Shown here: positions 13,072-21,145 of the stretch, one piece after another
How the letters are laid out: every line of letters starts with the position of its first letter
Numbering within the stretch: position 1 is the stretch's first letter
Program-made: the position numbers and the translations under genes
Assembly (NCBI RefSeq): GCF_020515625.1
Contig: NZ_JAIWPJ010000001.1
Span: forward strand, 1,364,001 to 1,428,000
DNA length: 64,000 nucleotides
From: Natrinema amylolyticum
Lineage (GTDB): Archaea; Halobacteriota; Halobacteria; Halobacteriales; Natrialbaceae
Direction: 5' to 3'
Notes under the pieces: generated by a model
Databases searched by the model: none
Told to the model about the DNA's origin: nothing
Seen by the model: the letters and a program-made list of their open reading frames with translations, nothing else

Positions 13072-13579
13072 TCGCAGCGGTCTCACTCCCAGCGGACGGC
13101 CCACCGACTCATTGTTTCGACCCGGTTACCCCTGTCAGACGGGCGTTACACGCCGTTCCGCGGGCCGTACAGGGACGCCGGTGGCACCGCGACGTTCGAC
13201 TCAGTGTCTGTCCCGTCCGTCGGGCGGCGGTCGGCTGTTCGAGGTCCGTTCGACGGAGTAGGGACGGGTTGTCCTCGATCGGGCCCTGAAAGGTGCCCGT
13301 ACAGGTTAGTATTCGGGTACGTTTGCGCGTCCTGTATTCGCGTTGAAAGGCTGTCCTCGCCGTCTCGAGTTCGAATGGTAACGGCCCGACCACTCACAGG
13401 TGATCGGTGACTAGGGGATTCAGGTGGCACCTCGAGTCCGTCGGAGAACAGATTCGCCCGCTCCGATTCGAACGGGACGAGACGTTCCCGTTTCACCGCG
13501 CACGACTTCCGAGTCCTCGTTCGCTCCGAGGACGGAGACGAGTCACTCTCCGATTCCCATCGAACCGGCTGGAAAACGA

Positions 13580-13601
13580 GTCCGCCTGCCACGATTTGAA
13601 C
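13580..13601 (-). repeat. Partial duplicate of tRNA-Tyr 3' end
   Basis: Read on the minus strand this segment matches the T-loop and acceptor end of tRNA-Tyr (13648-13669) at 19 of 22 positions by my alignment, including GTTCAAATCG and the final GGCGGAC. The paired half of the T-arm is missing, so it is not a functional tRNA. Such copies are typical of attachment-site scars left by elements that integrate into tRNA genes. Confidence 0.6.
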
Positions 13602-13642
13602 ACTGTAAGACGTGCTCGCTTCGCTCGCAGTGTTGGTCGTCG

Positions 13643-13648
13643 AAAAAG
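13643..13648 (-). terminator. T-run after tRNA-Tyr
   Basis: Immediately downstream of the tRNA on the minus strand is CTTTTT, a short T-run of the kind that ends archaeal transcription. It is the only obvious stop signal for this gene. Confidence 0.5.
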
Positions 13649-13722
13649 TCCGCCCTCCCCGATTTGAACGGGGGGCAAGTCGATCTACAGTCGACTGCTC
13701 TACCAGTCTGAGCTAAGGGCGG
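13649..13722 (-). tRNA. tRNA-Tyr (anticodon GUA)
   Basis: The 74-base RNA starts CCGCCCUUAGCUCAG and folds as a full cloverleaf. The seven-base acceptor stem pairs 13716-13722 with 13650-13656, and the anticodon stem GUCGA/UCGAC carries loop bases CUGUAGA with anticodon GUA. The T-arm CCCCC-GUUCAAAU-CGGGG precedes the acceptor. The first pair is C1:G72 with discriminator A, the known archaeal identity set for tyrosine. CCA is not encoded and there is no intron. Partial copies of its 3' half lie just downstream. Confidence 0.95.
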
Positions 13723-13849
13723 GCGCACTCAAACGTAGCCGCCGTGGTGCACATAAGGGTTATTATTCGAGGCGAGTCGTACGTGTCAGGAGACACGAAC
13801 GGCAGCATGATTGATATAGCAGGCGTGATAACATAGAGGCAACTCGCTC

Positions 13850-14494
13850 ATGAGCAAGATCACGTTCCGCGCCGACGACGACCTCGTCGAGCAACTCGAG
13901 GACTTGGAGATCTCCAAGAGCGAAGCGATGCGAGAGGCGCTGCGCTCGTATCTCGAGGGCGACGGGACCGCGCGGAGCGGCGGTGATCGGTCGGATCAGG
14001 GCGGCGGCGAGGAGGGTGCCATCGACGAACTGGTTCGGAAACGGGTCGACGAGCGACTCGAAACGCGATTGCGGGAACTCGGCCTCGATCGCGGGAGCTC
14101 GCGCGAACCGGCGGCCGACTCCCAGGACGTCAACGTCTCCATCTCGCTCGAGGGGGCGACGCGGTCCGACGAACGGGTTCGTGACGGACGAGTGCAGCTC
14201 GACGACGGGCGCACGCGTGAGACGACGCCGAGTCGGCCGACCGACGATACTGAGCCGACGCAGGCGCGCGGGCCGTCGGACACGCCGCCCGGCGACGGTG
14301 GCGTCCAGTGCAACCAGTGTGGCGACGAACTCGACGGCGATCACGTCTACTGTCCCAACTGCGGCGAAAAAGCATCGCGGCGGCTGTTCTGTGACTGCGG
14401 CGACGAGGTCCGGTCGGATTGGTCGTTCTGTCCCGGCTGCGGTCGTCGGACACCGGCGGCGGACGTCCTCGAGTCGGACAGTCACCAGTACTGA
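13850..14494 (+). CDS. cdrL: CdrL, long ribbon-helix-helix regulator with zinc ribbons
   Basis: The first 40 residues (SKITFRADDDLVEQLEDLE...SEAMREALRSYL) form a ribbon-helix-helix DNA-binding domain. A disordered acidic linker follows, and then two zinc ribbons near residues 150-200 (CNQCG...YCPNCG and CDCG...FCPGCG). In haloarchaea this gene precedes cdrS and ftsZ2, and CdrL is known as a regulator of the cdrS-ftsZ2 transcription unit. The same order is seen here. A palindrome AGTGT-AAG-ACACT follows shortly after the stop codon and belongs to the control region of the next unit. Confidence 0.88.
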   Translation: MSKITFRADDDLVEQLEDLEISKSEAMREALRSYLEGDGTARSGGDRSDQGGGEEGAIDELVRKRVDERLETRLRELGLDRGSSREPAADSQDVNVSISLEGATRSDERVRDGRVQLDDGRTRETTPSRPTDDTEPTQARGPSDTPPGDGGVQCNQCGDELDGDHVYCPNCGEKASRRLFCDCGDEVRSDWSFCPGCGRRTPAADVLESDSHQY

Positions 14495-14497
14495 TCA

Positions 14498-14671
14498 GTG
14501 TAAGACACTGAAAGTCCTGACCGACGAAAGTTTTATTATTCAGGCCGGACTTCCCATTATTCGCGTAAGACGGACTGTCTTACACTCATCGAAAAGACGG
14601 AAAATCGCCCGATGTCGGGCGGTTCCGTCGTAAGACACGCCGCGTCTGACAGGGGCGCGCCACCGTCTTAC
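14498..14671 (+). promoter_or_regulatory. cdrS-ftsZ2 control region with GTAAGAC operator cluster
   Basis: A TATA-like box (ttttattatt, 14531-14540) lies about 25-30 bases before a perfect dyad GTAAGAC-ggact-GTCTTAC at 14565-14583, which would sit on or just after the transcription start. Further copies of the half-site occur at 14500-14506 (inside the palindrome agtgtaagacact), 14630-14636 and, inverted, 14665-14671, all before the cdrS start at 14691. The arrangement suggests cooperative binding of a ribbon-helix-helix dimer such as CdrL or CdrS. The binding protein is inferred, not shown. Confidence 0.65.
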
Positions 14672-14690
14672 CCAACGGGGAATACAAACC

Positions 14691-14870
14691 ATGGAGCGTG
14701 TGACACTGCGAATCCCGAAACAGCAGATCGAGGAAGTAGAACAATTAGTCGACTCGGGCGAATTCCCGAACCGAAGCGAGGCGATCCGATCGGCCGTCCG
14801 CGAGATGATCAACGAGCAACAGGACGGACCCAGTGAACAGTCCGGCAAGCGCAACTGGGCCAAGGTGTAA
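14691..14870 (+). CDS. cdrS: CdrS, short ribbon-helix-helix cell-division regulator
   Basis: Only 59 residues long, so easily missed. The sequence starts [20 protein letters not shown] and continues with [14 protein letters not shown], the strand-helix-helix of the MetJ/Arc fold, followed by a short polar tail ending NWAKV. CdrS is described in haloarchaea as the transcription factor co-transcribed with ftsZ2 that controls its expression and cell division. The stop codon is two bases before the ftsZ2 start, so the two are one transcription unit. No Shine-Dalgarno match precedes the ATG; the leader is about 120 bases. Confidence 0.93.
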
Positions 14871-14872
14871 CG

Positions 14873-16060
14873 ATGCAGGATATCGTACAGGACGCCCTCG
14901 AGAACGCGGAGGAAGAGGCCCGCGATATGGACGCCTCGATGGACGACGACGAGTTCGGGGAGCCCCGAATCGTGATCGTTGGTGCGGGCGGTGCCGGTAA
15001 CAACACCATCAACCGGCTGTACAACATTGGCGTCGACGGTGCAGACACCGTGGCGATCAACACGGACAAACAGCACCTCAAGATGATCGAGGCCGACACG
15101 AAGATCCTCGTCGGCAAATCGCTGACGAATGGACTCGGTGCCGGTGGCGATCCGTCGATGGGTGAGCGTGCGACCGAGATGGCCCAGGGCACGATCAAGG
15201 AAGTGCTGGGCGACGCGGACCTCGTCTTCGTGACCGCCGGCATGGGCGGTGGCACCGGCACGGGTGCCGCCCCCGTCGTCTCGAAGATCGCCAAAGAGCA
15301 GGGTGCGATCGTCGTCGGGATGGTCTCGACGCCGTTCAACGTCGAGCGCGCCCGCACGGTGAAAGCCGAGGAAGGGCTCGAGAAGTTGCGCGAGCAGGCC
15401 GACTCGATCATCGTACTGGACAACAACCGACTGCTCGATTACGTCCCGAACCTGCCGATCGGCAAGGCGTTCTCGGTGATGGACCAGATCATCGCCGAGA
15501 CTGTCAAGGGCATCTCGGAGACGATCACCCAGCCGTCCCTGATCAATCTGGACTACGCGGACATGTCCACGATTATGAACCAGGGCGGCGTCGCGGTGAT
15601 GCTCGTCGGCGAGACCCAAGACAAGAACAAGACCGACGAGGTCGTCAAGGACGCGATGAACCATCCGCTGCTCGACGTCGACTACCGCGGTGCGTCGGGC
15701 GGACTCGTCCACATCACCGGCGGCCCCGACCTCACGCTGAAAGAGGCCGAGGGGATCGCCGACAACATCACCGAGCGCCTCGAGGCCAGTGCGAACGTCA
15801 TCTGGGGCGCCCGTATTCAGGAGGAGTACAAGGGCAAGGTGCGGGTCATGGCGATCATGACCGGCGTCCAGAGCGCCCAGGTGCTCGGCCCGACGACTCA
15901 GAAGCAGGCCGACAAGTCCCGCCAAAGCATCGAGGGCGTGACCGAGGCCGACTTCGACGCGAGCAAGAACGTCGACACCGGCGGCCCCGAGTTCGGCGCG
16001 CAGAGCGACGGCGGTCGCGACGAGGTCGACCGACAGAACGGCGTCGACGTCATCCGGTAA
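14873..16060 (+). CDS. ftsZ2: Cell division protein FtsZ2
   Basis: The 395-residue tubulin-like GTPase has the nucleotide loop VGAGGAGNN (residues 36-44), the signature [10 protein letters not shown] (125-134) and the T7-type segment with LDYADM. The N-terminus [20 protein letters not shown] and the position directly after cdrS mark it as the FtsZ2 class, which drives constriction of the division ring in haloarchaea, whereas FtsZ1 builds the scaffold. The last 60 residues are polar and disordered, ending NGVDVIR. Spacing to cdrS is two bases. Confidence 0.95.
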
Positions 16061-17353: not shown

Positions 17354-17568
17354 TAGCGGTCCGTTGTCGGTCGCCGCCAATCACGGTTTCGTCTGGCGAA
17401 GGCGACCAGCAGCGTCTCACGACGATGTCTTACAATCGGTATGATTCGGTCAGACGCGGTCGTCGCCGCCTCGAGACGGCCGTTAGCGGCCGATCCCGAT
17501 CGAGCCGGACCGTCCCCGCCGTCGTGTCATTCGAAACTACTTTCGGCGGTCCCGGAGACGCCGCGTGC

Positions 17569-18267
17569 ATGGTGATCTACGACAGGTCGGCGTCGACGTC
17601 GGTCCGGGTGATCGACGAGTTCGACGGCGGCGTCGGCTGGCTCGCCCATCCCGACGAAGCGGGGATGCGCGCGAGTCACGCCCTGCTGGGCGACGGGGGC
17701 GACGTCTGGCTGTTCGATCCCTTAGCGGCACCCGGCATCGACGAGGAAATCGCGTCCCTGGGCGACGTGGCGGGCGTCGTCGTCTGCTCGGCCTACCACG
17801 CTCGCGACGCCGACCGGTTCGCTCGGCGGTTCGACGTTCCCGTCTTCGTTCCGCAATGGCTCGACCGAGTTTCCGAGCGGATCGACGCCCCGCTCGAGCG
17901 GTTCGACGGGGCGCTCGCGAACTCGGGATTCCGAGCGCGCGAGGCGAGCCCGGTACCGGGATGGTCCGAGGCGATCGTCTACCGGCGGTCCGACCCGACG
18001 CTGTACGTTCCGGACCTCCTCGGAACCGCGCCGCTGTATCTCACCGGTGACGAACGGCTCGCGGTCTACCTGCTCCTCCGGCCGGTCGTCCCGACCGCCG
18101 TCTTCGAGGGGATCGCCCCGGAACGGATCCTCCTCGGGCACGGAACCGGCGTTTTCACGGACGCCGCGAGCGCCCTCGCTGACGCACTCGCGACCGCACG
18201 GCGGCGATTCCCGCGCGCCCTACTTCAGGGCGGGCCGCAACTGCGTGCGCTGCTCGACGCGCTCTGA
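17569..18267 (+). CDS. Conserved haloarchaeal protein, possibly degenerate metallo-beta-lactamase fold
   Basis: The 232-residue soluble protein has alternating strands and helices with VWLFDPLAAPGIDEEI, VVVCSAYHARDADRFA and the late motif ILLGHGTGV. Spacing resembles a metallo-beta-lactamase domain (a CSxxHxRDxDRF segment in place of HxHxDH, and a late LGHG), but most metal ligands appear lost, so a hydrolase role is doubtful. The ATG at 17569 (MVIYDRSAS) was chosen; an in-frame extension to 17425 is arginine- and serine-rich and overlaps the ncsA promoter. A regulatory or structural role is possible. Confidence 0.6.
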   Translation: MVIYDRSASTSVRVIDEFDGGVGWLAHPDEAGMRASHALLGDGGDVWLFDPLAAPGIDEEIASLGDVAGVVVCSAYHARDADRFARRFDVPVFVPQWLDRVSERIDAPLERFDGALANSGFRAREASPVPGWSEAIVYRRSDPTLYVPDLLGTAPLYLTGDERLAVYLLLRPVVPTAVFEGIAPERILLGHGTGVFTDAASALADALATARRRFPRALLQGGPQLRALLDAL

Positions 18268-20476: not shown

Positions 20477-21145
20477 ATGCTACTCGCTACGCTCCTGGTC
20501 GACTATCCCATCTTGCGTGACACGCTCTCGCAGGCGCCCGATATCGAACTCACGTGGGAACAATCGGATCTCACCGGAGACGGCGGCCATCAGATGCTCG
20601 TTTGGATCGACGGCGAGGGATTCGAGGCGTTCGACGCCGGCCTCGAAGCCGATCCGACCGTCACCGCGGCACCCCCCGTGGTCGAGTTCGACGGTCGTCG
20701 CCTCTATCAACTCTCGTTGACGTCCGACGGCCAGCGGATGAGCGTCTATCCGACCGTGATCGAAGAAGGCGGCGTCTTACACGAGGTGACCGCGACGCAC
20801 GAGGGCTGGTACTTCCGCGTCGCCTTTCCGAGCGACGAGGCGCTCGAGCGATTTCACGCCTTCTTCGTGGAGCACGGTCTGGCGGTCGAAATTCGGGAAC
20901 TGTACGACAAGAGCGAGTCGTCCGAGCCGGCGGGGTCGCGCTCGCAGTACGGGATAACGGACCGGCAGCGCGAGGCACTCGTCGCCGCCGTCGACACCGG
21001 CTATCTCGACATCCCGCGGTCCTGTTCGCTGGCCGAACTCGGCGAGCGACTGGATATCTCGCCGAACGCGACGTCGGAACGCTTCCGGCGCGGCGTCAAG
21101 CGACTCGTCGAGAACACGGTGTACCCGAGCGACCGATCGCCGTAA
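20477..21145 (+). CDS. Bacterio-opsin-activator-like HTH-10 regulator
   Basis: The 222-residue protein has an N-terminal sensory half (residues 1-150, alpha/beta) and the C-terminal HTH-10 domain, recognised by GITDRQREALVAAVDTGYLDIPRS and LGERLDISPNATSERFRRGVKRL. Proteins of this layout are haloarchaeal transcription factors of the Bat family without PAS or GAF domains. Targets are unknown. The ATG at 20477 was chosen; an in-frame ATG at about 20396 would add a poorly conserved basic leader. The neighbour on the other strand is another small regulator. Confidence 0.8.
   Translation: MLLATLLVDYPILRDTLSQAPDIELTWEQSDLTGDGGHQMLVWIDGEGFEAFDAGLEADPTVTAAPPVVEFDGRRLYQLSLTSDGQRMSVYPTVIEEGGVLHEVTATHEGWYFRVAFPSDEALERFHAFFVEHGLAVEIRELYDKSESSEPAGSRSQYGITDRQREALVAAVDTGYLDIPRSCSLAELGERLDISPNATSERFRRGVKRLVENTVYPSDRSP

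Follow-up and report, generated by a model that had tools for sequence, protein, structure and literature searches.

The stretch of DNA analysed here (64,000 nucleotides of Natrinema amylolyticum, hereafter the window) carries, in this order, tRNA-Tyr, cdrL, cdrS and ftsZ2. The gap between cdrL and cdrS holds five exact copies of the word GTAAGAC or its complement GTCTTAC within 172 bp, which we named O1 to O5. This bears out the array over the cdrS-ftsZ2 promoter that a preliminary description of the sequence had put forward. The genes and features are:

13850-14494, plus strand: cdrL, with an N-terminal RHH, a CdrL middle region and a double zinc ribbon (PF01402, PF24252 CdrL_M and PF12773)
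14500-14506, plus strand: O1, exact GTAAGAC, upstream of the TATA box and 65 bp before O2
14533-14538, plus strand: TATA-like box, at -32 to -27 relative to the dyad
14563, plus strand: predicted transcription start, a purine 2 bp before O2, placed by its distance from the TATA box
14565-14571, plus strand: O2, exact GTAAGAC, left arm of the dyad
14577-14583, minus strand: O3, exact GTCTTAC, right arm of the dyad, with a start-to-start pitch to O2 of 12
14596-14629, plus strand: predicted hairpin of the leader, lying between O3 and O4, a secondary feature
14630-14636, plus strand: O4, exact GTAAGAC, in the leader
14665-14671, minus strand: O5, exact GTCTTAC, a leader word 26 bp ahead of the ATG of cdrS
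14691-14870, plus strand: cdrS, encoding a 59-aa RHH protein (PF01402, E 5.6e-8)
14873-16060, plus strand: ftsZ2 (PF00091, PF12327)

O2 and O3 together make up a perfect 7-5-7 dyad (14565-14583), which is the sole exact copy in the 4.71-Mb genome. The dyad starts some 30 bp below the TATA centre, at the place expected of a start site; its earlier placement at the transcription start therefore agrees with the TATA distance, the start itself being a predicted one. Counting either strand, GTAAGAC occurs eight times in the window against 3.3 expected, a number reached by 3 of 100 shuffles. These shuffles and the 70-fold enrichment before cdrS described below led us to reject a chance origin of the array.

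The three copies outside the array are lone sites at 13605-13611 (upstream of cdrL), 17427-17433 (on the ncsA side) and 20774-20780. The preliminary description had the second of these right, placed the first at 13604-13610 and lacked the third; it also suggested a small regulon that included ncsA. That suggestion did not hold, because the site on the ncsA side is kept in just 1 of 12 relatives, and we rejected ncsA as a member. The site upstream of cdrL fared no better as part of the array or of a regulon: counting the window itself, 7 of 121 loci have a word within 400 nt upstream of cdrL; three congeners share the position -17, and the remaining words are dispersed. We take both words for ordinary background.

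Some further features of the region were observed in passing. GGGGAAT, at 14677-14683 between O5 and the start codon of cdrS, is seen again in several of 27 leaders and is perhaps a ribosome-binding element. The tRNA-Tyr gene spans 13648-13722, and the adjoining 13577-13640 is, by eye, a partial repeat of its 3' part. An Rfam scan of 13500-15000 returned the tRNA and one sub-threshold match only. Divergent from ncsA, an ORF of 280 aa (17425-18267) gave no Pfam match at E 0.01.

Conservation and copy number in haloarchaea

A search for cdrS in 195 genomes gave a match in 191, and upstream regions were compared for the 130 with the best CdrS scores, a choice that under-samples poorly matching families; these genomes supplied 138 cdrS loci, eight of them being entered twice. 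All 130 haloarchaeal upstream regions contain at least three exact words per 260 nt, where 0.07 would be expected: three in 15 promoters, four in 48, five in 66 and six in one. Conservation in orthologous promoters, which had been named earlier as a check on the motif, holds for the related promoters examined. The flanks of the 138 loci, from which the background rate was taken, hold 86 words in 312,308 nt, and the 230 nt before cdrS hold 608 words in 31,740 nt, which amounts to the 70-fold enrichment. Another 17 haloarchaeal loci, some of them in genomes already counted, carry three to five words each. One genome, G010, has two exact words only, namely those of the dyad, plus near-matches.

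The exact dyad is present in 129 of the 130 promoters, the exception (L034, from genome G060) having a degenerate right arm. In an alignment on the dyad, the TATA box keeps one position, -32 to -27, with a T at -32 in 126/129, and every promoter has a purine 2 bp before the dyad (G in 99, A in 30). The TATA distance and this invariant purine place the predicted start site at the dyad. The dyad spacer is 2, 4 or 5 nt long, and the start-to-start pitch of O2 and O3 is 11 in 101 promoters, 12 in 24 and 9 in 4 (n = 129). An exact O1, in either orientation, is missing in 38/129 promoters; where present, it stands at 52 bp from O2 in 32 of 40 cases if reversed, and at 61-65 bp in 51 of 54 if forward. 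Exact O4 is found in 97/129 promoters and absent in 32, and exact O5 is found in 119/129, 19-32 bp before the ATG.

We also scanned 56 whole genomes, picked for spread, for the exact dyad with a spacer of 2-6 bp. It occurs as a single copy in 54 of them and is missing in G060, the source of L034, and in G064, whose dyad differs from the exact form by one base. Of these 54 copies, 53 lie at cdrS, 86-135 bp before the gene (50 placed by coordinates; G005, G014 and G010 by sequence); the copy in G019, the only one away from cdrS, was rejected as a cdrS site. A reversed control pattern matched in 1/56 genomes. The dyad with a spacer of 5 is found in 25 of the 195 genomes, with one copy in each. 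The dyad marks one promoter per genome.

This single copy agrees with published chromatin data. In Halobacterium salinarum, CdrL ChIP-seq yielded one reproducible site, upstream of cdrS-ftsZ2, in both log and stationary phase (PMC7439475). The comparison is made through relatives, H. salinarum itself not having been identified among the scanned genomes: an exact dyad is present in G072 (a match to Halobacterium sp. TGN-42-S1) and in G027, and a dyad with one mismatch in G064, all three being of one genus. As would be expected of a CdrL operator, the dyad is thus found at the CdrL ChIP region and, G019 apart, nowhere else. The published region and the array share the promoter, the status of lone genomic target and the neighbouring genes; the term "motif" does not appear in the main text of PMC7439475, and the words, their layout and their spread are added here. 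Of the earlier proposal of a binding motif for CdrL or CdrS with a small regulon, the motif is supported by conservation, position, single copy and CdrL ChIP-seq, and the regulon with ncsA is not.

Related words beyond the haloarchaeal cdrS promoter

A further search gave a match in 87 genomes, and the best-scoring non-haloarchaeal ones among these were examined as 8 loci and 20 regions; two regions were dropped (no CdrS match; no ftsZ), leaving 26 cdrS-ftsZ loci from the same phylum. There is no GTAAGAC array in these 26 loci, a lone GTCTTAC in L253 being the only such word. What they do have is GTCAGAC/GTCTGAC words (GTCWGAC), in a region that starts below the TATA box and takes in the leader. 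Exact GTCWGAC occurs 48 times in the 120 nt upstream of the 26 genes, compared with three times in 62,240 nt of flank; each locus holds two to six words with at most one mismatch (two loci hold only two), and an exact word is present in 25 of 26, L238 having none. The distance between neighbouring words of this type is 11, 22 or 33 bp in 66 of 74 cases.

GTCWGAC is a 7-bp palindrome by itself, and each word can therefore take one symmetric RHH dimer, while steps of 11 bp would put the dimers on one face of the helix. Seen in this light, the haloarchaeal words that had been labelled half-sites resemble whole sites for single dimers. Repeated short palindromic words at a fixed pitch are what an RHH operator should contain, and both the 66 of 74 distances and the O2-O3 pitch show this arrangement. 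Similarly, an autoregulatory CdrS operator should be found wherever there is a cdrS-ftsZ locus; an array is present in the haloarchaeal promoters examined, with G010 holding just its two exact words, and, in its GTCWGAC-type form, in 26/26 non-haloarchaeal loci. In seven non-haloarchaeal genomes, the CdrL profile gave only partial matches, which cover the zinc-ribbon side, the best being that of G213 (E 2.6e-9); this agrees with the reported restriction of CdrL to Halobacteria (PMC7439475). The simplest reading of these sequences is that the array predates CdrL, as it seems to do.

The same paper states that all sequenced Halobacteria encode cdrL. Contrary to this, cdrL is missing at the locus in 6 of the 130 genomes, and G012 and G039 bring the number without detectable cdrL to eight genomes in six genera (loci L080, L120, L129, L132, L139, L142, L232 and L233). 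Searches for cdrL elsewhere in these genomes, with a protein (seven of the eight) and with a profile (all eight; G039 was covered by the profile only), returned weak partial matches at E 1e-4 or worse, and five positive controls scored below 1e-66. In several of these loci a tRNA-like translated sequence lies upstream with no cdrL in between. A broken cdrL that we considered in G155 was rejected, the gene being intact. As a side observation, L129 and L132 have several tRNA-fragment repeats upstream of the tRNA, seen as translated repeats, which are perhaps integration scars.

If the array were an operator for CdrL only, it should be absent where CdrL is absent; all eight haloarchaeal genomes without cdrL have the exact dyad and O5. 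In two pairs of congeners in which one member has lost cdrL, identity is about 70% outside the words and 100% inside (21/21 and 28/28), and part of this divergence may predate the loss. Between the congeners L139 and L142, the one informative pair in which both members lack cdrL, identity is 91% outside the words and 21/21 inside; L232 and L233 are 99% identical. Although the losses of cdrL may be young, CdrL is unlikely to be the sole reader, and the arrays in these genomes and outside the haloarchaea mean that CdrS must be considered besides CdrL.

Both proteins qualify as RHH proteins, with 32.9 bits for CdrS and 20.9 bits for CdrL against a Pfam cut-off of 20.5; RHH chains of known structure are distant relatives only (best E 0.0016). 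The recognition strand of CdrS, MERVTLRIP, is present in 138/138 loci, and that of CdrL, K[IV]TFRA, in 129/132, three being missed by the pattern; a set of 20 CdrL proteins was picked by sequence pattern. In Haloferax volcanii, CdrS ChIP-seq listed 18 sites, and cdrS itself (HVO_0582) is not among them (PMC8406309, Table 1). The published list speaks against occupancy of the cdrS promoter by CdrS in vivo. To go by the name of the plasmid, the tag in that experiment was apparently N-terminal (PMC8406309), the same end as the DNA-reading strand of CdrS.

A published CdrS target is ftsZ1, with a site at -50 from the start (PMC8406309). In 30 haloarchaeal genomes chosen for spread (loci L271-L300), all 30 ftsZ1 promoters have a pair of GTCWGAC words at a pitch of exactly 11 bp, 61-68 bp before the ATG. 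Out of 14 positions, mismatches number zero in 5 promoters, one in 16, two in 5 and three in 4, so that 26/30 have at most two; among 1,800 control windows, 0.3% reach three mismatches and none has a lower number. At any other pitch between 8 and 23, two or fewer mismatches are seen in at most 2/30. In five presumed Haloferax genomes, assigned by the length of CdrS (62 aa; 61 in the paper) and a gap of 3 nt to ftsZ2, the pair lies, by hand count, some 50-53 bp upstream of the start that a TATA-like element predicts. The pair is a candidate CdrS box. The same genomes keep different words at two promoters, GTAAGAC at cdrS and GTCWGAC at ftsZ1.

The pair and the CdrS ChIP motif of PMC8406309 are both symmetric and have similar positions at ftsZ1. 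They differ at dacZ and psmB, for the pair was not found at dacZ of the five presumed Haloferax genomes or in any of 30 psmB promoters (paralogues included, none from presumed Haloferax); the published site list, moreover, lacks cdrS. Over all dacZ promoters, the pair occurs with at most two mismatches in 4/35, compared with 6/1,400 control windows. A single CdrS motif for ftsZ1, dacZ and psmB together was thus not found, dacZ having the pair in a minority only, and the identity of the pair with the published motif is not established by this comparison, which is one of position, the logo being given only as a figure.

A Cdr operator and its alternatives

In our view, it is somewhat probable that the array is the operator of cdrS-ftsZ2, read by RHH dimers of the Cdr family, mainly CdrL and probably also CdrS, and serving dosage control. 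The position, conservation, single copy, wider spread and spacing of the words are established here, and the occupancy of this promoter by CdrL in Halobacterium was shown by others (PMC7439475). From these we infer the assignment of proteins to words, the cooperativity and the repression set out below.

Each 7-bp word would take one RHH dimer. The ancestral form may have been an autoregulatory CdrS operator of the kind still present in the phylum outside the haloarchaea, in which GTCWGAC-type words follow each other in 11-bp steps, first at the start site and then in the leader; in haloarchaea, the words would have changed to GTAAGAC, cdrL would have appeared next door, and CdrL would have become the main reader. 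CdrS can probably still read the haloarchaeal words, since genomes without cdrL retain the array. At the start site, dimers bound to O2-O3 would block the loading or escape of RNA polymerase; it is this position of the dyad that predicts repression. O1, some five or six helical turns upstream and beyond the TATA box, would join O4-O5 in the leader in a cooperative complex, and the O1-O2 spacings of 52 or 61-65 bp, together with the 11-bp pitch of most dyads, predict such cooperative binding on one face. The outcome would be control of the dosage of CdrS and FtsZ2. The RHH operators of Arc, MetJ and NikR likewise consist of repeated short palindromic sites, each bound by one dimer and about one helical turn apart, and autoregulation is common among these proteins. 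The array resembles them in its short palindromic words about one turn apart; unlike them, it has up to six words, which begin upstream of the TATA box of an archaeal promoter, pass the start and continue in the leader.

The sign of the control is a matter of inference. Deletion of cdrS lowered ftsZ2 1.3- to 2.2-fold (PMC7439475), overproduction of CdrS brought FtsZ2 to about 0.7-fold (PMC8406309), and the cdrL deletion carried second-site mutations (PMC7439475). The deletion and overproduction data give no sign of strong autorepression and do not fit a simple repressor.

It could be argued that CdrL alone reads GTAAGAC and that CdrS reads only GTCWGAC, the cdrS promoter having been taken over through a C-to-A change at position 3. 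The published experiments point this way, CdrL ChIP having found the cdrS promoter only and the CdrS list lacking it, and so do the two different words kept at cdrS and ftsZ1 in the same genomes; a single-copy dyad also suits a regulator with one target. However, the six genera in which genomes without detectable cdrL keep the exact dyad and O5 are difficult to explain on this basis, as are the GTCWGAC-type cdrS arrays outside the haloarchaea, where the seven genomes searched have partial CdrL matches only, and we regard this explanation as unlikely. Pure autoregulation would be the converse: CdrS alone would read the array, and CdrL would be recruited through CdrS or bind other nearby bases. 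CdrS is indeed the sole Cdr protein present wherever the array is found, within and outside the haloarchaea, and GTCWGAC arrays adjoin cdrS in archaea that lack CdrL. That its own promoter is missing from the CdrS ChIP list, that CdrL ChIP does find this promoter, and that FtsZ2 falls just to about 0.7-fold upon CdrS overproduction make such a role for CdrS alone improbable. Retention of the array without detectable cdrL, combined with the absent CdrS ChIP signal, would also suit a third haloarchaeal DNA-binding protein, which we consider very improbable, as it requires an extra factor beside two local RHH proteins, one of which binds the promoter in vivo.

The words in the leader might, on the other hand, act in the RNA. 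O2 can pair with O5, and O3 with O4, in the mRNA, enclosing a hairpin; such pairing would control translation or stability, and the DNA motif would be incidental. The leader in the window folds better than shuffles (z -4.25), and the O3-O4 interval (14584-14629 in the window) has a mean z of -2.18 in 97 promoters, 81% being below -1, compared with -0.15 and 22% in 65 control stretches. An earlier paper suggested that the operon is controlled post-transcriptionally (PMC8303175). The interval itself is hairpin-forming in most haloarchaea tested, in spite of its variable sequence. Two flanking pairs change on both sides in an alignment of 58 sequences, which were picked for exact words and hence provide no test of word pairing; the same changes would also be expected if a protein had a common preference in the flanks. 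Against the RNA as the main level, O1 lies upstream of the TATA box and is thus not transcribed, 32/129 promoters have O3 but no exact O4, with O5 retained in 119, the dyad spacer can be 2, 4 or 5 nt, and the words outside the haloarchaea follow 11-bp DNA steps. DNA is favoured as the main level by the position of O1, the loss of O4 and the 11-bp steps, and an array acting in the RNA with an incidental DNA motif is, in our opinion, highly improbable.

To return to the Cdr operator, a bolder version of it is possible, which we put forward tentatively. A single letter may have been the switch: upon the gain of CdrL, a CdrS array of GTCAGAC words would have become GTAAGAC, moving control of the operon to CdrL, with ftsZ1 staying with CdrS through GTCWGAC, and the array may act both as a DNA operator and as mRNA structure.

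In the open-access literature text, figures and most subscription papers and preprints lying outside it, we did not find GTAAGAC or GTCAGAC described as a Cdr site; the text consulted of a 2024 review mentions CdrS without CdrL (PMC7617429). Two regulators of the dosage of FtsZ ring proteins in archaea are known, and the parts consulted of the two papers on them gave no DNA words for the key promoter. An array of words that is kept nearly unchanged in more than 130 haloarchaea, with a one-letter variant in relatives outside, supplies exact bases for mutation in Haloferax or Halobacterium. It predicts one CdrL target per genome; a single base would set the control of cdrS apart from that of ftsZ1, and Cdr control would reach relatives beyond the haloarchaea. 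The haloarchaea without cdrL are ready-made test organisms.
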